The notes below the pieces were generated by a model, which worked only from the letters and a program-made list of their open reading frames with translations, was not told where the DNA came from and did no database searches. The position numbers were made by a program, and so were the translations under genes. From positions 1-33,086 of the forward strand of contig CADAGC010000001.1 of NCBI GenBank assembly GCA_902787365.1: a DNA stretch of 33,086 nt. Reading direction: 5' to 3'. Origin of the DNA: an uncultured Ruminococcus sp. (GTDB taxonomy: Bacteria > Bacillota > Clostridia > Oscillospirales > Ruminococcaceae). This document shows, piece by piece, positions 7,602 through 23,092 of the stretch. Each line of letters opens with the position of its first letter. Position 1 is the first letter of the stretch.

Positions 7602-9110
7602 TTACTTGCACTTAACTTTCTTAGCTGTAGTCCATTTGCAGGCATATTTCTTGTTGTTTACCAACTTGTATGCACGAATGCGCACATAGTAGGTCTTCTT
7701 GCTCTTAAGCTTAGAAATAGTCTTTGAAACGGTCTTTGCCTTCTTGACGCCATATGTTTTAACGCCCTTCTTGAAGTTCTTGTCGGTAGATATCTGCACC
7801 TGATAGCCCGACACGCCGCCTGCTGACTTCTTCCACTTTACAGTTACCTTCTTGGCCTTAGTTGACTTGACACTTGACAGCGTAGCCTTTGCAGGCTTGA
7901 TGATGAACGAGCGCTTTGTCGAGCCTGTGTACTTGCCTGTGCCTGTGATAGTTACAGTTGCCTTGCCGCACTTTTTGTTGTTCTGGTAGGTCAGCGTGTA
8001 GTCTGTGCCCTTAACAAGCTTGTCACCTGCGGAGTTTGTGATAGTTACTGAGGGCTTAACGCCTTTTTTGTTGTATGCATAAGTCTTGCTGGGTATGCTT
8101 ATCTTACAACTCGAGAGCCTTACATCAACATACTTGAATGAGTAAACCTGTGCATAGCTCTTGGCTGTATCGCCCGAGCCGTAAACGACATAGTCCTTTA
8201 TCTTTTCGTATTTGGCAGCACCTGTGGCGTGGATATAGCCGAAAGCATACTTGCCGATGCTGCTTACAGAATCGGGAATGACCACATCGGTAAGCACCGT
8301 GCAATTTTCAAATGCGCTGTTGCCTATGGTCGTTACGCCGCCGGGAATTGATAATGCCTTTAAGTGGTTGCATCTGTCGAATGCTTCTTCGCCTATTTTC
8401 TTAAGGCTGCCCGGCAGTATCACACGGGTCAGGGCTGTGCATGATGTAAATGCACGCCAGTCGATAGCTGTTACCTTGTTGGGAACTCTTATTGTTGAAA
8501 GGCTTGTACACCATGCAAAAGTATCGTCCTTAATCTCAGTAAGGTCCGCGGGAAGTGTAACGCTCTTAAGGGCTGTGCAGTTCTCAAAGAAATAGCCGCC
8601 CATAGTTGTTACTGTGTCGGGTATCACGATATCTGTAAGTGCGCTGCACCCATAGAACACATACGTGCCCATAGTCTTTAACCCTGAGGGGAGCTTTACA
8701 GTCTTAAGGCTCGTACACTTATAGAATGTGTAGTCGCCTATGCTTGTTGTGCCGCCCGAGAATGTAACGCTTGTAAGGTATGCCGACTCTCTGAAAGCGT
8801 CCATACCAACGCTCTTTACAGAAGCGGGTATAGTAATTGTCTTTATCTTGCTCATATAAAAAGCCTGATCACCTATGCGTGATACAGTCTTGCCGCCAAG
8901 CTTTTCGGGGATAGTCACGCTTGTAGACGAACCGTTGTAGCCTGAGATCTCTACAGTTCCGTCAGAAAGCGCCTTATACTCATAGTCGCCCGAAACTGCG
9001 GCACTTACGGTCATATTTGCACCAAGATCCATAATACCCTCGGGCAGTACTGCTGCCGTACTTAAAATCATTGAAACAGAAAGCATTCCTGCTATGATCT
9101 TCTTTCTCAT
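7602..9110 (-). CDS. Secreted BspA-type leucine-rich repeat protein
   Basis: 502 residues from the ATG preceded by AGGGAGGATC; a longer upstream frame has no ribosome site. Residues 1–38 form a signal peptide (MRKKIIAGMLSVSMILSTAA). Residues about 70–300 hold about nine LRR_5/BspA repeats of about 23 residues, each of the type 'L..V.IP..V..IG..AF..C'. Residues about 330–405 form an Ig-like MBG-type module. Residues about 408–502 resemble a fibronectin type III domain and are very Lys-rich. No LPXTG or transmembrane anchor is seen, so the protein is probably released or held by charge to the wall. Such proteins often mediate adhesion or substrate binding in gut bacteria. Monocistronic with its own promoter and terminator. 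Confidence 0.9.
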   Translation of the reverse strand: MRKKIIAGMLSVSMILSTAAVLPEGIMDLGANMTVSAAVSGDYEYKALSDGTVEISGYNGSSTSVTIPEKLGGKTVSRIGDQAFYMSKIKTITIPASVKSVGMDAFRESAYLTSVTFSGGTTSIGDYTFYKCTSLKTVKLPSGLKTMGTYVFYGCSALTDIVIPDTVTTMGGYFFENCTALKSVTLPADLTEIKDDTFAWCTSLSTIRVPNKVTAIDWRAFTSCTALTRVILPGSLKKIGEEAFDRCNHLKALSIPGGVTTIGNSAFENCTVLTDVVIPDSVSSIGKYAFGYIHATGAAKYEKIKDYVVYGSGDTAKSYAQVYSFKYVDVRLSSCKISIPSKTYAYNKKGVKPSVTITNSAGDKLVKGTDYTLTYQNNKKCGKATVTITGTGKYTGSTKRSFIIKPAKATLSSVKSTKAKKVTVKWKKSAGGVSGYQVQISTDKNFKKGVKTYGVKKAKTVSKTISKLKSKKTYYVRIRAYKLVNNKKYACKWTTAKKVKCK

Positions 9111-9143
9111 TAAATGATCCTCCCTTAATAATTTGGTAATATA

Positions 9144-9172
9144 AGTATAACACACCCAGGTTAATATGTCAA
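9144..9172 (-). promoter_or_regulatory. SigA promoter of the BspA-like gene
   Basis: Consensus TTGACA (9167–9172), 17-bp spacer, TATACT (9144–9149) with TGT immediately before the -10, about 35 bp upstream of the start. Confidence 0.9.
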
Positions 9173-9273
9173 ATAAATTGATAAATTTCGGCGTATTGTC
9201 AAAAAATGCCTTTACCCCCCGCCCGTATTTATTGATTTTCCGATGTTTTCGTGCAGGTGTTTTGCCCACAACC

Positions 9274-9304
9274 AAAAAAGACACAGCCGCAAAGCCGTGT
9301 CTTA
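9274..9304 (-). terminator. Intrinsic terminator after tadA
   Basis: Stem AAGACAC(GGC)/(GCT)GTGTCTT overlapping the tadA stop codon, with TTTTTTGG following on the minus strand. Confidence 0.8.
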
Positions 9305-9763
9305 TTTTTTCTTTTTCTCCCTAAGCCCTTTGAAAAACTCGCTCAAAAGCCCTGCGCACTCCTGCTCCATCACCCCGCCGATAAGCTCGGGCTTGTGGTT
9401 GAAAGGCAGGTCAAAGAGGGTTATCACCGAGCCGCAGGCGCCGAAGCGCTTGTCGTATGCGCCGAATATGACATTCTCTATCCTTGAATTGATGATAGCG
9501 CCGCTGCACATAGGGCATGGCTCTAAGGTAACATATAACTCGCAGTCTATCAGCCGCCAGCCGCCAAGTGTGCGGCTCGCTTCGTCTATCGCTGAAAGCT
9601 CGGCGTGGGCAAGCGGTGAGCGCTCGCTCTCACGGCGGTTGAAGCCCCTGCCAACTATCTCGCCTGTGGCCTTTTTGACTACCACCGCCCCTACAGGCAC
9701 CTCGCCCAAAGCCGCCGCCTGCCTTGCAAGGGCTATGGCTTCTTCCATAAAGCGTGTGTCCAT
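9302..9763 (-). CDS. tadA: tRNA-specific adenosine deaminase (A34 to I34)
   Basis: 153 residues, normal for TadA. It converts A34 to inosine in the anticodon of tRNA-Arg(ACG). The zinc/catalytic motifs are present: HAE (H53, E55) in SPLAHAELSAI, and EPCPMC (81–86) giving the two Cys ligands. The C-terminus ends in a Lys run. The ATG follows the stop of the upstream membrane-protein gene by one base (TGATATG), with no clear SD of its own, so expression depends on coupling. Terminator immediately downstream. Confidence 0.95.
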   Translation of the reverse strand: MDTRFMEEAIALARQAAALGEVPVGAVVVKKATGEIVGRGFNRRESERSPLAHAELSAIDEASRTLGGWRLIDCELYVTLEPCPMCSGAIINSRIENVIFGAYDKRFGACGSVITLFDLPFNHKPELIGGVMEQECAGLLSEFFKGLREKKKK

Positions 9764-9764
9764 A

Positions 9765-10955
9765 TCACGATACCATAATGTAGAGCCACACTACACCGCT
9801 TGCAGCAAGCCATGTTATCGTGGGCATAGCCGTAACGAATGTCTTTAGCTTGTCACGGAAAACAAGCTCGGTGTCTGCGCTTTTTATGTTCACCTTGTAA
9901 TCTTCAAAGCTAATGAGCCTGCCTATGCAGAAAAGCGCTATGCCGATGATGAATATGCAGACAAGCAGCATATACAGCTCGCCGCCCGCATTGTCTGCGT
10001 TTTCGGTATTTATCAGCTTAAGGGCAAAGAATATAAGGTTTATCTCTACCCTGCCCGCTATAGCACACAGCAAAGAGCCTGTCTTTATGGTAAGGATAGA
10101 TATGATGATGCTCAGCACAAAATGCGTTCCTATATTTATAAAGTTTATCGCCATTATGCTCTCAACAGCCGCCGTGAGCATTATTGCAGTAGAGTCGCCA
10201 AACTGCCGCAGCAGCTGCAAAATAAGCCCGTTCATCAGAATTGCGTGAAGTACGGGGGTTATGAAATACTGCACGCCGAAACAATGGATATTGAGCCCCA
10301 CGCTGTCGCACCACACAAAGCCCCCAGGCACCGACATCAGCTGCGTACCGAAGACCATGCCGAGAATAGCCGACACAACATAACATACCGCCGCACAGCC
10401 GCCCACAACACCGAAAAGGCATAAGGTGTGCCTTTTGGGTATCTTTGTGCCCCTTGGCATAAATACTTTTTTAGGCAGCTTTGTGAACATCGCTATAAAG
10501 AATATGCTGATGAGCAGCGACAAGGGTTTGAACAGCGAAAGCACTATCGTGGCTGAAATATCGGTCGGGTGAGTGTTGCCGTAAACTTCTATTGACGAGC
10601 CTGCCAGCAGATGCCCCGCACGGGAGTCGAACATCACCTGAAAAAGCCTTATGACCGCCGATATGAGCATAGTTCCGCCGATAAGGTTGGAGCAGAATTT
10701 GAGCGACTCACGCTCGGAGTCGGAAGCAAGGTCATTCTCAAAGCCCTCACCGAAAGCGTAGGTATGCTCACGGGTGTCCTTTACATACTTGTAGCCGAAG
10801 CGGTTGTTATCCTTGGTGCGCCACTTTGTAAACGCCTCTCTGTACTCCTCGTCCTGCCCCGAATACTTACTCTCCGAGGCTATATCTATAAGATAATCCT
10901 TTGTGTTGCTCAAATCTTTCACCACGCTTTTTAAAATGCATAATTCATAATACAT
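9765..10955 (-). CDS. Polytopic membrane protein, degenerate CPBP-like
   Basis: Up to 396 residues. A soluble N-terminal segment of about 90 residues is followed by about eight hydrophobic helices. The block 'HAILMNGLILQLLRQFGD…NFINIGTHFVLSIIISILTIKTGSLLCAIAGRVEIN' has the layout of CPBP (Abi/Rce1-like) intramembrane glutamyl proteases, but the usual EExxxR opening is MNGLIL and other catalytic positions look lost, so activity is doubtful. The assignment rests on pattern alone. The first eight codons (MYYELCIL) lie in an intergenic heptamer repeat, and no SD precedes that ATG. GTG codons at 10925 or 10922 are alternative starts. It is translationally coupled to tadA. Function unknown. Confidence 0.7.
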   Translation of the reverse strand: MYYELCILKSVVKDLSNTKDYLIDIASESKYSGQDEEYREAFTKWRTKDNNRFGYKYVKDTREHTYAFGEGFENDLASDSERESLKFCSNLIGGTMLISAVIRLFQVMFDSRAGHLLAGSSIEVYGNTHPTDISATIVLSLFKPLSLLISIFFIAMFTKLPKKVFMPRGTKIPKRHTLCLFGVVGGCAAVCYVVSAILGMVFGTQLMSVPGGFVWCDSVGLNIHCFGVQYFITPVLHAILMNGLILQLLRQFGDSTAIMLTAAVESIMAINFINIGTHFVLSIIISILTIKTGSLLCAIAGRVEINLIFFALKLINTENADNAGGELYMLLVCIFIIGIALFCIGRLISFEDYKVNIKSADTELVFRDKLKTFVTAMPTITWLAASGVVWLYIMVS

Positions 10956-11097
10956 AATGCATAATTATTGTGTCCGCCTTGTGGCGGACGAATGCCCATT
11001 CGGGCTTTTGCTCTCACTAAATCGCCAAAACAAGGCCGAATGGCCATATATCGCCGTAGGCGCACCTTAATTATGCATTATGCATTTTGCATTATGT
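10938..11097. repeat. Heptamer/hairpin intergenic element A (inverted pair of half-units)
   Basis: Left array of four 7-mers, GCATAAT-type (10938–10965), and right array of four 7-mers, ATTATGC-type (11070–11097), in inverted orientation around about 105 bp. Left half: hairpin GTCCGCC/GGCGGAC (10972–10989), 6-nt linker to the array, and box ATGCCCATTCGGGC (10992–11005). Right half: box GGCCGAATGGCCAT (11034–11047) and hairpin CGCC-GTA-GGCG (11052–11062). The architecture is shared with the elements at 23131–23401 and 30741–30819. MITE-like, no coding capacity. Confidence 0.75.
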
Positions 11098-11103
11098 ATT
11101 GAT

Positions 11104-11131
11104 ATAAAAATCCGCCCCGATGCACGGGGCG
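11104..11131 (-). terminator. Intrinsic terminator after recR
   Basis: Stem GCCCCG/CGGGGC (11125–11130 with 11114–11119), loop TGCAT, then GGATTTTTAT on the minus strand. It ends the SRP RNA–dnaX–ybaB–recR unit. Confidence 0.85.
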
Positions 11132-11151
11132 TGATCAGCAGGCAGTGCTGC

Positions 11152-11754
11152 CTAAATTTCGTTCCTGTTTTCAAGAGCACGGTAAAGCGTCACCTCGTCG
11201 GCGTATTCGAGCATACCGCCTACTGGCAGGCCGAATGCGAGCCGTGTGACCCTGACCTCAAAGGGCTTTAGCAGCTTTGCTATATACATAGCCGTAGCCT
11301 CGCCCTCGACTGTGGGATTTGTGGCCATTATGACCTCGTCTACCTCACCGCCGCTTACTCTCTTTACAAGCTCTTTTATGTGTATCATGTCGGGCATTAT
11401 CCCCTCAACAGGTGATATAAGCCCGTGAAGCACATGGTAAACGCCTTTGTACTCCTTCGTCCTCTCAAACGCCGTAACGTCCTTGGGGCTTTCGACCACA
11501 CATATAGTGTGCTGATCCCTCTTGGGTGAGGAGCATATGGGGCAGACCTCTCTGTCTGTGAAGTTGAGGCACACCCTACAGCTTTTTACCTTTTTTCTTG
11601 CGCCCTCAAAAGCGCTTATGAACGCCTTTGCATCAGCCTCGTCCATTTCCATGACGTGGTATGCAAGGCGCTGCGCCGATTTCATACCTATGCCAGGCAG
11701 CTTTGCAAACTGCTCGGAGAGTATGACAAGCGGCAGAGCACTCGCTTCAGCCAT
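11152..11754 (-). CDS. recR: Recombination mediator RecR
   Basis: 200 residues from the ATG at 11754, the normal family length; a longer frame running back into ybaB is not needed. HhH region 'LPGIGMKSAQRLAYHVM' near residues 19–35, four-Cys zinc finger C59, C62, C71, C74 (CRVC…CPIC), then a Toprim domain beginning ICVVESPKD. RecR works with RecF/RecO to load RecA at gapped DNA. The start lies one base after the ybaB stop (TGATATG) and lacks a strong SD, so it is translationally coupled. Last gene of the dnaX operon. Confidence 0.96.
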   Translation of the reverse strand: MAEASALPLVILSEQFAKLPGIGMKSAQRLAYHVMEMDEADAKAFISAFEGARKKVKSCRVCLNFTDREVCPICSSPKRDQHTICVVESPKDVTAFERTKEYKGVYHVLHGLISPVEGIMPDMIHIKELVKRVSGGEVDEVIMATNPTVEGEATAMYIAKLLKPFEVRVTRLAFGLPVGGMLEYADEVTLYRALENRNEI

Positions 11755-11755
11755 A

Positions 11756-12106
11756 TCAGAAGAGGCCGGGGAATGAAACGCCGCCTGTGAGCTTCTGCAT
11801 CTCAGCGTCGCTCTCCTCGTCAAGCTTTGCAACTGCCTCGTTGAATGCGCTCATTATAAGATCCTGGAGCATCTCTATATCGTCGGGGTTAACTACCTCA
11901 GGCTTGATGTTGAGAGAAAGAACGTTTCTCTTGCCGTTGATAGTGATATCGACCATGCCGCCGCCTACAGAAGCCGAGAACTCTCTCTGCTCGAGATCCT
12001 CCTGAAGAGCTGTGATGTCGCTCTGCATCTTCTGAGCCTGCTTGATCATCTGGTTCATGTTGTTGGAAGGGCCCTTGCCCATACCCTGGGGAAGTCTTGC
12101 TTTCAT
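11756..12106 (-). CDS. ybaB: YbaB/EbfC nucleoid-associated protein
   Basis: 116 residues. N-terminal Met/Gln-rich segment 'NNMNQMIKQAQKMQSDITALQEDLEQREFSASVGGGMV' followed by the helix 'DDIEMLQDLIMSAFNEAVAKLDEESDAEMQKLTGG', characteristic of YbaB/EbfC. These small dimeric proteins bind DNA and are almost always encoded between dnaX and recR, as here. ATG start with AAGGAG about 10 nt upstream, 22 bp after dnaX. Proposed roles are nucleoid organisation and repair; the precise role in Firmicutes is not settled. Confidence 0.95.
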   Translation of the reverse strand: MKARLPQGMGKGPSNNMNQMIKQAQKMQSDITALQEDLEQREFSASVGGGMVDITINGKRNVLSLNIKPEVVNPDDIEMLQDLIMSAFNEAVAKLDEESDAEMQKLTGGVSFPGLF

Positions 12107-12128
12107 GGTTAAATAACTCCTTTTTATA

Positions 12129-13724
12129 TTATTCTGGTTTTTTTATTTCAACCTCGATACCCATATTCTGAGCACGGCTCTTAAGAACATTGATAGGGTT
12201 TTCCTTATCATTTATGTCTACAGAGCTTGCTGTGTAGAGCATGAAATCGAAGTCTTTGTTATAGAAATCGTGGACTATCTTCTTAAGCTTTGCGCTGTCA
12301 TTCGACGCTTTGAATTTCATCTTGTAGAAATCAGATGCGCAGATGATGTTGAAGGTGTCGCCCTCTATAGCTGCCGCCGAGTTTTCAAGGAATGCGGCTA
12401 TGCCCGGGTATTCCTCCCTGACTCTGTCGAGTATCTGCTGCCAGTCTTCAAGCGGGGTGTAGTTGTTCACATCAAATTTCTTAAGCGGCGCTGCGGGCTT
12501 TTTGGGCTTTGGCGGTGCGGGCTGCTGCCCTGCGTTCATTCCCTGCGGCGGTGTGCCGCCTGCTGCGAGCCGCCTTTCAAGCTCGTTTATCCGGTTTATA
12601 AGCGCCTGCGTGTCCTCCGTCGGAGCTGATGCTGCCTTTGCAGGCACACCCGAGCACAGGCGGATTATGCACATCTCAAGCTCGGTGCGCTTTGACGATG
12701 CGCCCCTGAATCTGTCAAGACAGTCCTGAAGCGAGGTCAGCTGATAGAGCACCGTGTCGATATTCACATTTGCGGCTATTGCCTTTAAGCGTTCAAGCTC
12801 GTCGGGCAGACAGGTTATAAGGTCTGTCTGGCCGTTTATAGCCTTTAGGAGCATTACGTTTCTTAATTGCTCAATAAGCTCGGAGCAGAGTATCTTCAAG
12901 TCCTTGCTCATGCCGTAAAGCTCGTTTATCCTTGAAAGAGCGCCTGCCGTGTCCTTTGCGACAAGCTTTTCTATTATGTCAAACAGATAGTCACGCCCTG
13001 CGATACCTGCGGCGGTGGATACTACCGATGTGTCGATATTATCCGAATAAGCCGCACACTGATCCAGCAGCGAGAGCGCATCTCTCATACCGCCGTCGGA
13101 AAGCCTTGCTATCAGCTCTGCGGCGTTATGTTCAAGCCCTAAGCTTTCCTGCGATGCGATGTATTCTATCCTTGCGACTATGTCCTCAGTTCTTATGCGC
13201 CTAAAATCATAGCACTGACAGCGCGAAACGATAGTTGCAGGCACCTTGTGCATCTCGGTAGTCGCCAGCACGAATTTAACGTGCGGCGGCGGCTCCTCCA
13301 TAGTTTTGAGCAGCGCATTGAATGCACCCGGGCTCAGCATATGCACCTCGTCGATGATATACACCTTGAACTTGCACATCTCGGGGGTATACACAACGCC
13401 CTCACGCAGTTCTCTTATATCGTCCACCTTTGAGTTTGAGGCGGCGTCTATTTCAAATATATCGGGCAGCGTGCCGTTATCGGCATTTTTGCATATCTCG
13501 CACTCTAAGCACGGCTCGCCGTCCTTGGGGTTTAAGCAGTTGATAGCCTTTGCGAAAATTCTCGCACAGGTGGTCTTACCCGTGCCCCTTGACCCCGTGA
13601 AGAGGTATGCGTGGGCTGTCTTATCGTTTTTTATCTGATTTTTGAGGGTCTGCGTGACCTGCGGCTGAGAAACAACGTCATCAAACGACATAGGCCGCCA
13701 TTTTCTGTATAATGCACGGTACAC
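12129..13724 (-). CDS. dnaX: DNA polymerase III subunit gamma/tau
   Basis: 531 residues. AAA+ clamp-loader ATPase: Walker A GSRGTGKT (44–51), zinc Cys C63, C72, C75, C78, DEVH Walker B (125–128), and an SRC sensor/arginine-finger motif near 167–169. Domain III extends to about 370. A Pro/Gly/Gln-rich linker (about 385–415) leads to a C-terminal tau-type domain. It loads the beta clamp at the replication fork. GTG start (YRALYRKWRP begins the conserved N-terminus) with AAGGGG upstream. No slippery run producing a short gamma form was recognised. Directly downstream of the SRP RNA and transcribed from the same promoter. Confidence 0.97.
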   Translation of the reverse strand: MYRALYRKWRPMSFDDVVSQPQVTQTLKNQIKNDKTAHAYLFTGSRGTGKTTCARIFAKAINCLNPKDGEPCLECEICKNADNGTLPDIFEIDAASNSKVDDIRELREGVVYTPEMCKFKVYIIDEVHMLSPGAFNALLKTMEEPPPHVKFVLATTEMHKVPATIVSRCQCYDFRRIRTEDIVARIEYIASQESLGLEHNAAELIARLSDGGMRDALSLLDQCAAYSDNIDTSVVSTAAGIAGRDYLFDIIEKLVAKDTAGALSRINELYGMSKDLKILCSELIEQLRNVMLLKAINGQTDLITCLPDELERLKAIAANVNIDTVLYQLTSLQDCLDRFRGASSKRTELEMCIIRLCSGVPAKAASAPTEDTQALINRINELERRLAAGGTPPQGMNAGQQPAPPKPKKPAAPLKKFDVNNYTPLEDWQQILDRVREEYPGIAAFLENSAAAIEGDTFNIICASDFYKMKFKASNDSAKLKKIVHDFYNKDFDFMLYTASSVDINDKENPINVLKSRAQNMGIEVEIKKPE

Positions 13725-17049: not shown

Positions 17050-17670
17050 ATGAAAAGAAAAGTTTTGTCAGAAAAGAAAGTACTCAAGGAATTAAATATT
17101 TCGGATTTCAGCCAAATGCCTAATGATGAAGAGAAAATCAAACAATTCGCAGGTATGTTACCATATATGGATAAAGAAGTTGCATTGAAGGCAATTGAAC
17201 AATTACCCGAATATAAAGATATGGCTTGTCAGCTTGCAAACACTTATAAACAAATTCTTTCAGATATTATATCGAATAATAGCAAAACCGTTGATGCTAA
17301 CATTGATATTTGCAATAAAATAATCGATTCTCTTACAAAAACGCTCGAAAAAGACAATCTTACTCCAGATGTAATCAAAAGCACACAAGAGAATATGCTA
17401 GAAATTGCAAAACTTATGAAAGAAATTGACGCACAAAACAAAGGTTTCTTATTAAAACTAGCCGGACTAAGTGCAGGCATTATAGCGATTTTAGTTGCAG
17501 GCTTAAAAATTGCAGGTACTCTGCTTGATGCTAATTCACTTGGTCAAGATGTTTATGAATCAGATGATGACGACGATGATGATGACGATGATTATGACGA
17601 TGATTATGACGATGAAGAGGACTATGACGACGACAACATAATAGATGTTGACAATTATACTAATAGTTAG
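17050..17670 (+). CDS. Uncharacterised single-pass membrane protein with poly-Asp tail
   Basis: 206 residues. Cytosolic helical/coiled-coil-like N-terminal region (1–130), one hydrophobic segment at about 133–158 (FLLKLAGLSAGIIAILVAGL), then an extremely acidic tail (about 170–200) made almost only of Asp with some Tyr and Glu, encoded by a GAY-rich microsatellite-like stretch. AGGAG lies 9 nt before the ATG. Codon use is visibly more AT-rich (AAA, GAT, TTA, ATA) than in neighbouring upp and the dynamin genes, which suggests separate origin. It ends at a strong bidirectional terminator facing the tRNA gene. No family recognised; the N-terminal pattern 'F..MLP.MDKEVALKAIEQLPEY' may help a search. 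Confidence 0.78.
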   Translation: MKRKVLSEKKVLKELNISDFSQMPNDEEKIKQFAGMLPYMDKEVALKAIEQLPEYKDMACQLANTYKQILSDIISNNSKTVDANIDICNKIIDSLTKTLEKDNLTPDVIKSTQENMLEIAKLMKEIDAQNKGFLLKLAGLSAGIIAILVAGLKIAGTLLDANSLGQDVYESDDDDDDDDDDYDDDYDDEEDYDDDNIIDVDNYTNS

Positions 17671-17996: not shown

Positions 17997-18026
17997 TTGA
18001 CAGCTTTGCAAAAAACGTGCTATAAT
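17997..18026 (+). promoter_or_regulatory. SigA promoter of the dynamin operon
   Basis: TTGACA (17997–18002), 18-bp spacer, TATAAT (18021–18026) with TGC before the -10. Leader of about 115 nt containing a TGTGG/CCACA hairpin near 18032–18055. Confidence 0.9.
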
Positions 18027-18150: not shown

Positions 18151-20196
18151 ATGGATAAGCTGATCGACTACGGCGGGTATGCCGCCTATCGTAAAACAGT
18201 TGCTGAGCTTACCGCTAATCTTAAGACGCTTCTTGAGCTTAGCGAGGGCGTACAGCTCCCCAATACCGCCGATTCCATCAAGGAAACGATAGAAAAGACG
18301 AGCGACGAGCATTTCGAGGTCGCTATCGTCGGCGAGTTTAAAAGAGGCAAGAGCACACTTATCAATGCCCTGCTCGGGCAGGAGGTGCTTCCTGCCGACG
18401 TTCTGCCTGCCACGGCAACTCTTAACAGAGTCACCTACTCCACAGACCCTTATGTGTCGGTAGAGTATAAAAACGGCACGCACGAGCGTGTAGATATCGA
18501 CAAGCTCGCTGACTATGTCACAAAGCTCACCGCCGAGAGTGAGGAAAAGGCCGAGACCGTTAAGGAAGCGACCGTTTATTATGATACCGAGTTCTGTAAG
18601 AACAACGTTGATATCATAGACACCCCCGGCCTCAACGATGATGAGCAGATGACAAGCGTTACTCTTTCTATCCTTCCCAAGATAGATGCGGCGGTCTTTG
18701 TTATTTCTGCAAACAGCCCCTTCTCGCAGTTTGAGAAAGACTTCTTGGAAAAGAAGATGCTCACATCCGACGTGGGCAGGATAATCTTCGTTGTAAACTG
18801 CTTCGGCACCTTTGCAAGAGAAGACGAAAACAAGATAGTTGAGACTGTAAGAACACGTATCACCCGCTACGTTATGGAAAAGGCCAAGAAGGTAATGGGT
18901 GAGGATTCGAGAGAGTTCGCAGCATATAAGCGTAAGATAGGCACGCCCAGAGTTATAGGCGTGTATGCGAAGCGTGCCCTTACGGCTAAGAAGATAGAAG
19001 ACCCCAACCTGCTTGAAGAGAGCAATTTCCCCGAGTTTGAAAAAGCGCTGGAGACTATGCTCACCAAGGAGAGGGGCGTTATCGCACTCCAGATACTTGC
19101 AAATAAGATAACCAACTCGGGCACAGAGATCATGAGAAGCGTCGTTATGCAGGAAAACGCCCTCATGATGGAAAACGACGAGTTCATGAAGAAGTATTCG
19201 GCTGCTATTGATGAGATAGAGTCGATAAGAAATAAGAAGAGACAGGAGTTCGTTAAGATAAACGACGCCGCAAACAAGGTCTTTGCAGACCTGCAGCCCG
19301 TGCTTGACAGCTACTGGTCGAATATCGAGAACGCCGCTATGGAGGTTATTGATAACTTCCAGATGTCCTCTGACGACTTCAAGAAGGACAGGCTCAAGAT
19401 AGTTACCAACAAGCTCACCGATAAGATAAAGGAAAATATCGAGACAAGAGCACAGCTCATCTGCGAGCAGATTCAGAACTCTATCAACGTTGCTATCAAC
19501 GTCGAGGCTGAGAGACTTCAGGACTTCGAGGACGAGTTCTTTGAGTCTGTTTCCAAGATACAGCAGATGTTCGCAGTATCCGACAGAGTTTCCAAAAACG
19601 GCGGCATCGCTGATAAGGTAACAGGTGCGGCTATCGGCTCGTTCGGTGTGGGCGGCGCATTCTTAGGCTTCCGTGAAGCGGGCGTCAAGGGCGCACTCTT
19701 AGGCGGTGCAACCGCCTTTGCAGGCTTCTCGGCTACTTACTATGCCGCTATGATGCTCGCAAGCTTCATAGGCCTTGCCTCTGCCCCCGTTACCCTCTGC
19801 CTTATGGCTTTAGCAGGCCTTGCAGGCACATTCACAAGCTCGTTTGCTATAGACAAGCTGCTTGTTAATGAGAGGATAGATAAGTACAAGACCAACTTCA
19901 AGACGCAGGTCAGAAAGCAGTTCCACGAGATGAAGCTCAACAACGACTTCACCGAGACTGTCAGAAAGCAGGTATTCACAGCGTTTGAAGGTCTTAAGAC
20001 CAAGATCGAGGACGAGACTGAGATAATCCTCCGTGACACACAGGAAACACTTGACAACTTAAACAATATGAAGGCCGAAAAGAGCCATATCTCCGAAAAG
20101 GAAATGGACAGGCTGCATGATATAGCCGAAAAGGCAAGTAAGATAGTTTCAGACGCTTATGCGCTGAGAAAGGCTCTTACCGAGGAGAATGAGTAA
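18151..20196 (+). CDS. Bacterial dynamin-like GTPase with membrane-insertion segment
   Basis: 681 residues from the ATG at 18151, which has GGAGG 6 nt upstream; an in-frame ATG at 18130 has none. GTPase domain: G1 GEFKRGKST (61–69), switch I Thr region (about 86–92), G3 DTPG (157–160). The G4 position reads VNCFGTF (215–221) and lacks the usual Asp, so guanine specificity may be altered. Helical stalk about 300–480 and 570–681. A long hydrophobic region at about 493–565 is probably a membrane-inserting paddle or two-helix hairpin, as in cyanobacterial BDLP. Such proteins bind, tubulate or fuse membranes. First gene of an operon with a degenerate M48 protein and a second dynamin. Function in this organism unknown. 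Confidence 0.9.
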   Translation: MDKLIDYGGYAAYRKTVAELTANLKTLLELSEGVQLPNTADSIKETIEKTSDEHFEVAIVGEFKRGKSTLINALLGQEVLPADVLPATATLNRVTYSTDPYVSVEYKNGTHERVDIDKLADYVTKLTAESEEKAETVKEATVYYDTEFCKNNVDIIDTPGLNDDEQMTSVTLSILPKIDAAVFVISANSPFSQFEKDFLEKKMLTSDVGRIIFVVNCFGTFAREDENKIVETVRTRITRYVMEKAKKVMGEDSREFAAYKRKIGTPRVIGVYAKRALTAKKIEDPNLLEESNFPEFEKALETMLTKERGVIALQILANKITNSGTEIMRSVVMQENALMMENDEFMKKYSAAIDEIESIRNKKRQEFVKINDAANKVFADLQPVLDSYWSNIENAAMEVIDNFQMSSDDFKKDRLKIVTNKLTDKIKENIETRAQLICEQIQNSINVAINVEAERLQDFEDEFFESVSKIQQMFAVSDRVSKNGGIADKVTGAAIGSFGVGGAFLGFREAGVKGALLGGATAFAGFSATYYAAMMLASFIGLASAPVTLCLMALAGLAGTFTSSFAIDKLLVNERIDKYKTNFKTQVRKQFHEMKLNNDFTETVRKQVFTAFEGLKTKIEDETEIILRDTQETLDNLNNMKAEKSHISEKEMDRLHDIAEKASKIVSDAYALRKALTEENE

Positions 20197-20243
20197 TACC
20201 CTCTCCGTATCAAAACAAGTCTGTTAATATAAGAAGGTGATAT

Positions 20244-21254
20244 ATGATGGCTGATTCTCTGAATATGGAGAATAATGCGGCTTCGCAGGAGGTGCAAAAC
20301 CCTCTGCTTAAGATAGATACAAGCTTCCGCACCTACCTCAACGTCTACACAAGAAGCTTTGATAACCACGTAGTCGGCGGCTCGCTCGACTATGCGCTGG
20401 ATTCTGACTTTGCGCTGAGGCAGAAGCTTTCGGGCATACTCGGCTGGGGCAGGCTTTACAGAGCCATTACCACAGGCGATATCTCCGCCGAGGGCAAGGA
20501 ATGCTATATGACCTGCGTTCAGGCAGGCAACCTCAAATACCCCGAGGTATACGATATAACCAAGAAATGCACCGAGCGCCTTGAACTCAACCCGCCCACG
20601 GTGCTTATAAAGGAAGATGATGAGCCGAGGATATACTCGCTGACAAGTGACAGCTTTGAGCCGTCGATAGTTATATCCACAGGGCTTCTGGAACTGTGCA
20701 GCAGCGAGGAGCTTCAGTTCCTTATCGGCTGTGAATGCGGCAGGCTGCAAAACAACCACACGGCATTCAATTTCGCATTTACATATCTTAACTACAACAA
20801 GCTTTGCTACCGCCCCAAAGAACGCACCTATAAGCAGGCAGTAGGCGGTCAGCTGGCACGTATGCTCATTCAATGGGTCAGATATGCAGACCTTACCACC
20901 GACAGGGCAGGCATGATATGCCTTGACGAGCCGAGCCACTACGGCAAGCTGCTGTGTGACCTCTACGAAAAGGGCTATGCAGACTTCTTCGGAAGAAAGA
21001 ACGAGAAGATGGACTTTGAGAATATACTCGAGGTCTATGAAAAGATCAAGGACGAGAAAGAACCCAGACATATAGCTATTGATAAGTCGATACCCGCCAT
21101 AAAGCGCCGTGTTATCGCAGGAATGGATTTCCTCGACTGCGTGACGCTGTATAAGTGGCGTATGGATATCAAGAGGCCTAATTACCAGCTCCGCTCGCAG
21201 CAGATGAGTGATATCCGCTGCAACCTTATCATGGGCTCGGATACGGAGGTGTGA
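20244..21254 (+). CDS. Degenerate M48-like metallopeptidase homologue
   Basis: 336 residues, cytosolic, with no signal or clear membrane helix. The segment 'IVISTGLLELCSSEELQFLIGCECGRLQNNH' (143–172) matches the M48 pattern '…TGLL..LS.EEL..V.GHELGH...NH', but the HExxH zinc/catalytic motif is C163-E-C-G-R167: both His ligands are replaced and the Glu is kept. The third-ligand region 'W.R.AELTADRAG' reads WVRYADLTTDRAG (211–223) with Asp for Glu. It is therefore probably not a classical zinc protease; Cys-based metal binding or a scaffold role is possible. AAGGTG precedes the ATG; a second ATG follows at once. Sandwiched between two dynamin genes and overlapping the ribosome site of the next. 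Confidence 0.75.
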   Translation: MMADSLNMENNAASQEVQNPLLKIDTSFRTYLNVYTRSFDNHVVGGSLDYALDSDFALRQKLSGILGWGRLYRAITTGDISAEGKECYMTCVQAGNLKYPEVYDITKKCTERLELNPPTVLIKEDDEPRIYSLTSDSFEPSIVISTGLLELCSSEELQFLIGCECGRLQNNHTAFNFAFTYLNYNKLCYRPKERTYKQAVGGQLARMLIQWVRYADLTTDRAGMICLDEPSHYGKLLCDLYEKGYADFFGRKNEKMDFENILEVYEKIKDEKEPRHIAIDKSIPAIKRRVIAGMDFLDCVTLYKWRMDIKRPNYQLRSQQMSDIRCNLIMGSDTEV

Positions 21255-21256
21255 AT

Positions 21257-23029
21257 TTGGAAAACTTGAATATTTACGCTGATTCACACGAGGATATCGA
21301 AAAGGTAAGAGCAAGGCTCAAAATGATAATCGACGACGAGATGATAGCTAAGATACTCGGCGAAGATTTTATCAAGAATATGGTCGAGTGGGACGAGCTG
21401 ATAGAAAAGCGCTCGAAAGAGCCGTTCACGCTGGTCATCTTAGGTGAGTTCAAAAGGGGCAAGAGCACAATAATCAATGCTCTTCTCGGCAAAGAGCTCG
21501 CACCGATGAACATATCCCCCGAAACATACACCATAAATGAGATAACCTACGGCAGAGTGCAGGGCGTTGAGGCTGTTTTTGATAACGGCAAGAGAATGCG
21601 CCTTACCATGCGTGACACCACAAGGGAACGATTAGAGGCAAGGGAAAAATTCTTCCCCGGCAAGATAGAATACCTCGACATCAAGGACAACTCCCCCATT
21701 CTAAAGGAAATGAGGATAGTTGACACCCCCGGTCTGTCAGACCTTGACGACCTTGACAAGCAGGTGACCGATTATCTTGTAAACGCCGATGCGGTAATGT
21801 ACGCCACATCTGCTCTCCTCCCGTTCTCGGAGAGCGAGCAGGTGTTCTTAGGGTCGCATATTCAGCCGCAGAGGTTCAGTATGCTCTATATCCTTGTGAA
21901 TATGATAGACGCCCTTAATACGCAGGAGGACGTTGACAAGATAATGAAGCGCTTTGAGGGCATAGCTTCCGAGATAGTGCCGAATGCCTTTGTTTACGGC
22001 ATAAGCGGCTTTGATGAGCTTGCAAGAAAAATGGGGCAGAAGCGCCCCGCCGACAAGGGCACGAGAGAATTCTACGAGAGCCAGTTCTTCCAGTTCGAGC
22101 TGTCGCTCAAGCGTGATATAATGCTGCAAAAGGACATTATCCGCACAAAGCGTGTTATCTCGATGCTGCGTCAAATGGTAGATGAAACATCTGCCAAGAT
22201 GAATATGTTCTACGAGATGAGCACCCTTGACAAGCAGAAGCTCGAAACCGTTTCGCAGGAGTTTGAATCGGAAGCGCAGAAGATAGAGCAGGCTTTAGAG
22301 CAGAAAAAGCCCCTGCTGCACCTTAGCATAACCGAAATGCAGCAGCAGGCTGAGCAGTGGATGTATGAATTCTTTGCAAAGCTCAGAAAGAGCATACTCG
22401 AGTGCCTTGACAAGGATGAAAACGGCGAGCCTGTCTACAAGGCCGAGGATATCGAAAAGTTCTTCTACCCGTTCCTTATGGAAAAGGTGGGCGAAGCGTA
22501 TCGTGCCTGCATAGAGATGCACCGTGAAGCTATAAGAAAGACGATAGAGACCATATCCGCCGAGCTTGCACAGAAGCTTGGCATAGCAGACCTTTCGGAA
22601 GTTACGCAGTCAACCAGCGTTGACAGGATAATGATGAGCATGAACAAGAACGTTACCCGCTCGGTAATGGGCGTCAAGCTCTTCGGCACCAGCGAGACAT
22701 TCCCGCCTGCGACGATGACCTCATTCTCGCAGATATTAAAGAAGAAAAAGCAGACCACCGATATAATCGATATAGCCCTTGAAAACTATGACGATATCAG
22801 GATAAACATAGTCAACGACATCAAGCTCGTTTATCAGGACTTGGAGACAAAGGCGGTCAAGCAGCTTGAATCTATCTGCAAATATCAGACCGAGATAGGC
22901 CGCAAGACCCTCGACCACGCAAAGGAGGTTTCCTCCGAGTTCAAGTACGAGGACGTAAGCGACGCTCTTAGTACGGCCATGTCGATACTCAAAGAGCCTG
23001 CAAGGATACTTGCAAAATACGACGACTAA
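21257..23029 (+). CDS. Second dynamin-like GTPase, without transmembrane segment
   Basis: About 590 residues. The TTG at 21257 has GGAGG at 7 nt spacing; the GTG at 21251 lies inside that SD and is unlikely as a start. GTPase domain: G1 GEFKRGKST (63–71), G3 DTPG (156–159), G4 NMID (215–218, in LVNMID), so the nucleotide motifs look complete. The rest is largely helical, with no hydrophobic stretch long enough to cross a membrane. The GEFKRGKST motif is identical to that of the first dynamin, suggesting related paralogues acting as a hetero-oligomer, one membrane-anchored and one soluble, comparable to other tandem bacterial dynamins. Last gene of the operon, followed by a strong terminator. 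Confidence 0.88.
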   Translation: MENLNIYADSHEDIEKVRARLKMIIDDEMIAKILGEDFIKNMVEWDELIEKRSKEPFTLVILGEFKRGKSTIINALLGKELAPMNISPETYTINEITYGRVQGVEAVFDNGKRMRLTMRDTTRERLEAREKFFPGKIEYLDIKDNSPILKEMRIVDTPGLSDLDDLDKQVTDYLVNADAVMYATSALLPFSESEQVFLGSHIQPQRFSMLYILVNMIDALNTQEDVDKIMKRFEGIASEIVPNAFVYGISGFDELARKMGQKRPADKGTREFYESQFFQFELSLKRDIMLQKDIIRTKRVISMLRQMVDETSAKMNMFYEMSTLDKQKLETVSQEFESEAQKIEQALEQKKPLLHLSITEMQQQAEQWMYEFFAKLRKSILECLDKDENGEPVYKAEDIEKFFYPFLMEKVGEAYRACIEMHREAIRKTIETISAELAQKLGIADLSEVTQSTSVDRIMMSMNKNVTRSVMGVKLFGTSETFPPATMTSFSQILKKKKQTTDIIDIALENYDDIRINIVNDIKLVYQDLETKAVKQLESICKYQTEIGRKTLDHAKEVSSEFKYEDVSDALSTAMSILKEPARILAKYDD

Positions 23030-23053
23030 CTACTTTTCATTCTATAGGGGAGG

Positions 23054-23092
23054 CACAGCACAGCCCGTGGTTCGGGAGGTGCTGTGTTTTTT
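23054..23092 (+). terminator. Intrinsic terminator of the dynamin operon
   Basis: CACAGCAC/GTGCTGTG (23054–23061 with 23079–23086) with an inner CCCG/CGGG, followed by TTTTTT. Confidence 0.93.

Follow-up and report, generated by a model that had tools for sequence, protein, structure and literature searches.

In the 33,086 nt of DNA analysed here (hereafter the window; positions 1-33,086 of contig CADAGC010000001.1 from an uncultured Ruminococcus sp.), we identified three consecutive open reading frames (ORFs) on the plus strand, in which two genes for dynamin-like GTPases, D1 and D2, enclose a gene for a protein, M, that resembles M48 peptidases but has lost their zinc site. Comparison of genomes shows the trio to be obligately linked, fixed in order and under purifying selection. 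We consider it probable, if by no means assured, that the three products form one machine, in which a heterotypic dynamin pair is joined by a pseudoprotease adaptor and which arose from a protease-containing module. The unit is carried by Ruminococcus-type bacteria of the gut and rumen. The three genes are as follows.

18151-20196, plus strand: D1, predicted membrane-inserting dynamin-like GTPase, 681 aa (Pfam Dynamin_N, 6.2e-33)
20244-21254, plus strand: M, M48-fold pseudo-peptidase, 336 aa (Pfam Peptidase_M48, 2.8e-6; 27.7 bits against a cut-off of 20.3)
21251-23029, plus strand: D2, soluble dynamin-like GTPase, 592 aa (Pfam Dynamin_N, 9.4e-21)

Scanning a genome collection with one genome per species (84,980 species), we found 183 relatives of M, the best 80 of which were examined; these 80 named loci carry 80 distinct M sequences. 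At 74 of them M is immediately preceded by D1 and immediately followed by D2, all three in the same orientation, whilst at the remaining six the contig begins (three) or ends (three) at the missing gene, and no locus among the 80 with room on its contig was found without a partner dynamin. In a sample of 148 genomes of the family, which shares at least eight proteins with the named loci, M matches were present in 22 genomes and D2 matches in 20, all of them within those 22; the two M-only genomes (G096 and G059) gave the weakest M matches (E-values 1e-8 and 5e-5), which are other M48 proteins. D1 matches were likewise detected in 22 genomes, namely the 20 with D2 together with G096 and G135 at 1e-22; that of G042 falls on its D2, D1 itself lying off the contig. 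Eighteen of the 20 family loci retrieved are complete, one (L041) has a shortened M with D2 and one (L042) has no dynamin. Two complete loci are loosened, with ∼990 bases separating M from D2 in L037 and ∼430 in L039; a 189-aa ORF without a Pfam match occupies the interval in L037 (9612-10181). M was present in 7/7 genomes of the genus sample, and M-type matches, some of them distant M48 proteins, in 20 of 126 genera. The genome of R. albus 8 carries the operon (L074). Distant M48 proteins are themselves widespread and mostly unlinked to dynamins. As linkage was complete at 74 of the 80 loci, and every genome with D2 also had M, we rejected the explanation that the three are chance neighbours. 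An earlier note on this DNA had asked whether M homologues always lie between two dynamins, or are instead found unlinked or confined to one strain: the 74 complete loci, with six cut by contig ends, agree with the first, no unlinked orthologue occurs among the named loci, and the operon is found in many genera.

All three genes are constrained. The ratio of non-synonymous to synonymous substitution (dN/dS; simple Nei-Gojobori counts, dS 0.4-0.9) was 0.021 for D1, 0.111 for M and 0.039 for D2 against the nearest relative, and 0.031, 0.105 and 0.038, respectively, against the next. Identity to the relative was 98.8 % for D1, 94.9 % for D2 and 86 % for M, with upp at 90.9 % and dnaX at 88.0 %.

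The loss of the zinc site from M is apparent in two motifs.

20730-20759, plus strand: degenerate HExxH region, CECGRLQNNH, residues 163-172 of M (first His absent in 80/80 named loci)
20889-20903, plus strand: degenerate third zinc-ligand motif, DLTTD for ExxxD, residues 216-220 of M (Asp in 80/80)

The M48 assignment itself, for which no solved relative was found by sequence search, draws on the Pfam match and on an AlphaFold2 model built from 47 aligned relatives, with a predicted local distance difference test score (pLDDT) of 87.2 and a predicted template modelling score (pTM) of 0.84. The top Foldseek matches of this model were Ste24p, ZMPSTE24, HtpX and BepA, with E-values of 2.7e-3 to 0.05 and probabilities of 0.77-1.00; none was at or below 0.001, and we read them as moderate support for the M48 fold alone, in agreement with Pfam. 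An M48-like layout had previously been suggested for the middle protein, and both the profile match and the predicted fold uphold it. M has no strongly hydrophobic segment (maximum Kyte-Doolittle value 1.05). In place of the M48 HExxH it carries GCECGRLQNNH, and across the 80 named M sequences the position of the first His (163) is taken by Cys in 43, Ser in 22, Ala in six, Arg in four, Gly in two and otherwise Ile, Phe or Tyr, whilst that of the second (167) is Arg in 64, His in 12 and Lys in four; the catalytic Glu164 and His172 are retained in all 80. Among 17 pseudo-peptidase loci of the family draw (L023-L039), the first His is absent from 17/17 and Glu164 is present in 16/17, and position 216 is Asp in 14 and Cys, Asn and Thr in one each. 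One of these, L038, has lost the entire HExxH core and kept the operon. Judged by its residues, M would thus be an M48 homologue that fails the defining zinc site and is catalytically dead, and the suggestion of a pseudo-peptidase, made before any relatives were compared, fits all 80 sequences.

The flanking dynamins proved to be unequal. Their closest solved relatives by sequence are the Campylobacter jejuni dynamin pair and Nostoc BDLP, the nearest to D1 being BDLP (2j68, 2.1e-27, residues 52-661); the predicted model of D2, which is of modest confidence (pLDDT 73.7, pTM 0.52), matched BDLP (2j69, 8.2e-19), IniA (8.8e-16) and the C. jejuni DLP pair (6.6e-14) by fold. The features that tell them apart, and one that they share, were followed in D1-class and D2 alignments of 98 rows each.

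18331-18357, plus strand: D1 G1/P-loop, GEFKRGKST (identical in 92/98 D1-class rows)
18796-18807, plus strand: D1 degenerate G4, NCFG replacing N/TxxD (NCFG in 91/98 D1-class rows)
19741-19851, plus strand: D1 hydrophobic stretch, residues 531-567, paddle-like (Kyte-Doolittle 19-residue mean up to 2.0)
21899-21910, plus strand: D2 intact G4, NMID (N and D kept in 98/98 D2 rows)

D1 and D2 alike contain GEFKRGKST and DTPG. The 91 D1 rows with NCFG represent 82 distinct proteins, and the seven exceptions are dynamins adjoining an M48 protein with intact HExxH (L040, L142, L143 and L154). Every full-length D1 adjoining a pseudo-M has NCFG (91/91), and the D1 of the sister operons with HECGH has N/TxxD (3/3). 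As G1 and G3 of D1 are intact, nucleotide binding may persist with altered specificity. By hydropathy only, a Kyte-Doolittle value of ≥ 1.6 is reached in 96/98 D1-class rows compared with 1/98 D2 rows. These differences support a division of labour between the two dynamins. Of what the earlier note had seen here, the identical motifs, the abnormal G4 of D1 beside an intact NxxD in D2, and the restriction of a putative membrane-inserting region to D1 all stand, whilst its placing of that region at about residues 493-565 gives way to 531-567. As a GGAGG lies only ∼2 bases ahead of the GTG at 21251, D2 may in fact start at the TTG at 21257.

The trio appears to be transcribed as a unit, with a promoter-like and a terminator-like element at its ends.

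17997-18026, plus strand: sigma-70-type promoter-like site, TTGACA-18-TATAAT, extended -10 (12/12 match, TG ahead of the -10)
23048-23092, plus strand: terminator-like hairpin and T run after D2 (-28.3 kcal/mol, z -5.04)

With near-copies kept, 79 of 87 regions upstream of D1 relatives score 11-12 of 12 for the promoter-like site, compared with nine of 87 in a reversed-strand control. No shuffled sequence out of 200 folds as well as the hairpin, which was not among the calls of a consensus scan of the window. Median gaps in the named loci are 36 bases between D1 and M and -1 between M and D2. A strong promoter at 17997-18026, a strong terminator at 23054-23092 and coupled or closely spaced genes had all been read from the letters at the outset; the full promoter match and its conservation, the folding energy of 23048-23092 and the ORF coordinates are in accord with each. 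The operon is a single chromosomal copy set among the housekeeping genes upp, dnaX, tuf, fusA, rpsG and rpoC.

Relatives with an intact peptidase site point to where the operon came from. Complete D1-M-D2 operons whose M retains HECGH and the third Glu were found at L040, in the same family, and at L142 and L143, in other families of the class. Both L040 (3234-11611) and L143 (4460-11664) consist of five genes, encoding an extra dynamin, a zinc-ribbon protein, D1, the HECGH M48 and D2; L040 has a further small zinc-ribbon-like ORF ahead of D1. At L142 the operon is preceded by a gene for a zinc-ribbon protein and followed by a 386-aa ORF, after which comes the gene for a protein kinase-NACHT protein (8344-12138). 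A quick IQ-TREE phylogeny of 62 M48 rows puts all 42 pseudo-peptidase rows on one side of a branch with support of 100, with L040-L041, L142 and L143 next to this clade and a single change of the zinc-site state (0/500 shuffles as low). By itself the tree does not show which way the change went; we take it as a loss because M48 proteins normally have HExxH. HECGH operons are rare, occurring in 1/38 and 1/16 genomes of two families (each with one distant M48 match besides), and in a wider family-level scan (306 genomes, 52 matches, a minority of the new matches read) those known among the matches read were G051 and G042. An HECGH operon is carried by G446 as well. In a phylum-level scan of 348 genomes, 87 of which had M48 matches, 20 contexts were looked at, and dynamins adjoin the M48 gene in four of the 13 best and none of the next seven. 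Distant M48s with an intact site also adjoin dynamins in other gene orders (L264, L267, L268, L270 and L154); at L154 (1857-9105, minus strand) one gene run encodes an HECGH M48, two dynamins and a 558-aa protein weakly similar to LeoBC. The ancestral operon probably encoded an active M48 protease between its dynamins, and a binding-only version took its place in the Ruminococcus lineage.

M further carries an N-terminal motif peculiar to this arrangement.

20298-20339, plus strand: M N-terminal motif NPLLKIDTSFRTYL, residues 19-32, proposed docking motif (conservation in 80/80)

N19, P20, L21, I24, T26, F28, Y31, L32, R37 and H42 are identical in all 80 named M sequences, and the N-terminus is modelled with low confidence (pLDDT < 50 for residues 1-25 and 32-37). 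Of 104 M proteins encoded in D1-M-D2 operons, 103 match the motif pattern (93/94 when repeats are removed), the exception being the shortened L041; none of 37 other M48-like frames, some of them partial or very distant, does so. The report on the C. jejuni pair describes a short N-terminal helix of one dynamin that docks on the other (PMC6104087), and by analogy we suggest a docking role for the motif of M.

In the machine that we favour, D1 would be the membrane component, through its hydrophobic hairpin, and D2 the soluble partner with the complete GTPase motif set, whilst M, being catalytically dead, would hold or position the dynamins and perhaps still read peptide or membrane cues. The three would bind each other, M docking via its N-terminal motif, and D1 would need D2 for any work driven by GTP, the two joining in a heterotypic G-dimer as in C. 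jejuni DLP1/DLP2, a pair for which heterotypic pairing and GTPase stimulation are described in the same report (PMC6104087). We infer from the sequences that such a complex, with M as its adaptor, may perform GTP-driven membrane work by means of the heterotypic pair; its effect would be to remodel, tether or repair the cell membrane. A more specific and decidedly tentative scenario is that the Ruminococcus lineage domesticated a sporadic module of two dynamins and an M48 protease, the zinc site and the G4 of D1 being lost on the same stretch of the tree, and that a proteolytic, OMA1-like switch thereby became a scaffolded, non-proteolytic dynamin machine held by the docking motif of M.

Several observations tell against this interpretation. 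Asp can serve as a zinc ligand in some metallopeptidases, so that the argument for a dead site depends mainly on the missing His. The motif pattern was written after the linked set had been viewed, 10 of its 104 rows are repeats, and it is absent from M48s that adjoin dynamins in other gene arrangements (L154, L264, L267, L268 and L270). Furthermore, the complete sister operons detected that retain the M48 site number only three, and the coincidence of the G4 and zinc-site losses thus rests on few outgroups.

Two other roles for the operon as a whole were weighed, and it is the conserved promoter, slow evolution, housekeeping neighbours, low Leo scores and absence from viral contigs that led us to place membrane repair or remodelling above both. 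A constitutive housekeeping function in envelope growth, division or spore formation, similar to that of Streptomyces DynA/DynB and with M as a structural part, is unlikely but deserves to be taken seriously: promoter conservation, slow evolution, presence in all seven genus members and a single chromosomal copy all suit it, but the operon occurs in only 20/148 family genomes and so cannot be a general requirement for division in the family. We hold it to be rather unlikely that the trio, in the way of Leo or DynA, serves in anti-phage defence or conflict by restricting the release of phage or by killing infected cells. B. subtilis DynA reportedly gives phage tolerance (PMC8844932), the PADLOC Leo models give weak matches to both dynamins (D1, 68.9 and 66.0 bits; D2, 46.0 and 38.1 bits), the kinase-NACHT gene downstream of the L142 operon hints at a conflict role in that lineage, and the sporadic distribution of the intact-M48 operons would be in keeping with defence. 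Set against this are the occurrence of the window-type operon throughout the genus sample, its slow evolution, near-consensus promoter and housekeeping neighbours, and the 338 and 375 bits scored by genuine Leo proteins at L144. Moreover, a search of 2.9 million viral contigs gave no M relative, none of its 30 pattern matches being confirmed, and plasmids gave only three distant M48 matches, and for these reasons carriage as phage or plasmid cargo was rejected. One phage-collection record (MT836781, 'Bacteriophage sp.', unverified and without annotated features) does hold a full D1-M-D2 adjoining an integrase; we tentatively take it to be a bacterial or conjugative-element contig. Tyrosine integrases lie near the operon at L258 (5807-7228, the phage-labelled record) and at L046 (5944-7227, a rumen Ruminococcus), perhaps from integrative elements alongside.

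As to M itself, it is very unlikely still to be an enzyme, whether an OMA1-like protease or another hydrolase, acting on the dynamins via Glu164, Asp216 and His172. Each of these residues is invariant in the 80 named sequences, sister M proteins carry HECGH and the third Glu, and the M48 protease OMA1 is described as cleaving the dynamin OPA1 (PMC8027119). On the other side, the varied residues at 163 and the Arg at 167 in 64/80 leave no metal site of the M48 kind, Glu164 and His172 are inherited from active M48s, and L038 keeps the operon without an HExxH core. That M is instead a decaying passenger gene without function is scarcely credible: it is the fastest evolving of the three, but its frame is open in all 80 distinct named sequences and its dN/dS is only ∼0.1, on which ground the idea was rejected.

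Comparison with described systems points to a dynamin pair with a new third component. C. jejuni DLP1/DLP2 (5owv, 5oxf) are likewise two unequal dynamins encoded together, matched by D1 and D2 in sequence and by D2 in fold, but no M48 is mentioned between their genes, the word 'peptidase' being absent from the text of that paper (PMC6104087). Nostoc BDLP1 (2j68, 2j69) is the best solved relative of D1 over nearly its whole length, and of D2 by fold, whereas the window has a second dynamin, a fixed non-dynamin third gene and a D1 without G4. LeoA/LeoBC (PADLOC; enterotoxigenic Escherichia coli, ETEC) is a tandem dynamin system to which the window genes give low-scoring profile matches, but these reach at most 68.9 bits, there is no split LeoC/LeoB, and M is absent from the PADLOC models. 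The NCBIfam LeoA model gave 24.9 bits against a cut-off of 325, and the DynA equivalog, which describes two fused dynamins where the window genes are separate, 56.5 and 39.3 bits against 1600; with scores so far below these cut-offs and below the Leo genes of L144, membership of Leo or DynA was rejected. At L144 (8553-13736) an HECGH M48 gene precedes the strong LeoBC and LeoA matches, an adjacency that L145, from the same genus, does not share and to which we therefore gave no weight. The mitochondrial OMA1-OPA1 system also pairs an M48-fold protein with a dynamin; OMA1, however, is active and membrane-bound, whereas M has neither a zinc site nor a strongly hydrophobic segment. The comparison is at the level of the M48 fold. 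Proteolytic control of that type does not fit the window-type M, its zinc site being gone. The active M48s of other Bacillota (L267, L270, L268 and L264) adjoin one or two dynamin genes but lie at the end rather than between them, with HExxH intact and the N-terminal motif absent.

Among open-licence papers we found none with a dynamin family protein and an M48 family, no bacterial dynamin-M48 operon and nothing specific on the function of the trio, and the text of two conflict-system surveys contained neither 'dynamin' nor 'M48'; the earlier note had similarly known of no system with this three-gene composition. Paired bacterial dynamins are common, and their regulation is little understood. 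Here a non-dynamin gene has a fixed and obligate place between the two, and relatives show the passage from an intact to a dead protease site with gene order unchanged. Control of dynamins by M48 proteins outside mitochondria thereby becomes directly testable, by comparing HECGH operons with pseudo-operons; the joint loss of the D1 G4 predicts a dynamin that would be unable to work alone, and the motif predicts the docking site of M.

A number of minor observations were also made. Bacillus YceG- and TelA-type genes belong to envelope-stress operons, and genes of these types (YceG_bac) lie directly after D2 in L032 (11189-13999), L095, L097, L114 and L120, with L032 and L120 sharing the same M. 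YceG is commoner in operon genomes (10/20 compared with 10/128; Fisher 1.7e-5, kinship ignored) and is absent from the window genome. Within the window, just upstream of a tRNA-Leu gene, a 206-aa protein (17050-17670, plus strand) combines a hydrophobic stretch with a long tail of Asp residues, and gave no family above cut-off in profile searches. Lastly, the minus strand has a further extended -10 promoter-like site, again a perfect match, at 17863-17835, ahead of tRNA-Leu(caa) at 17806-17720.

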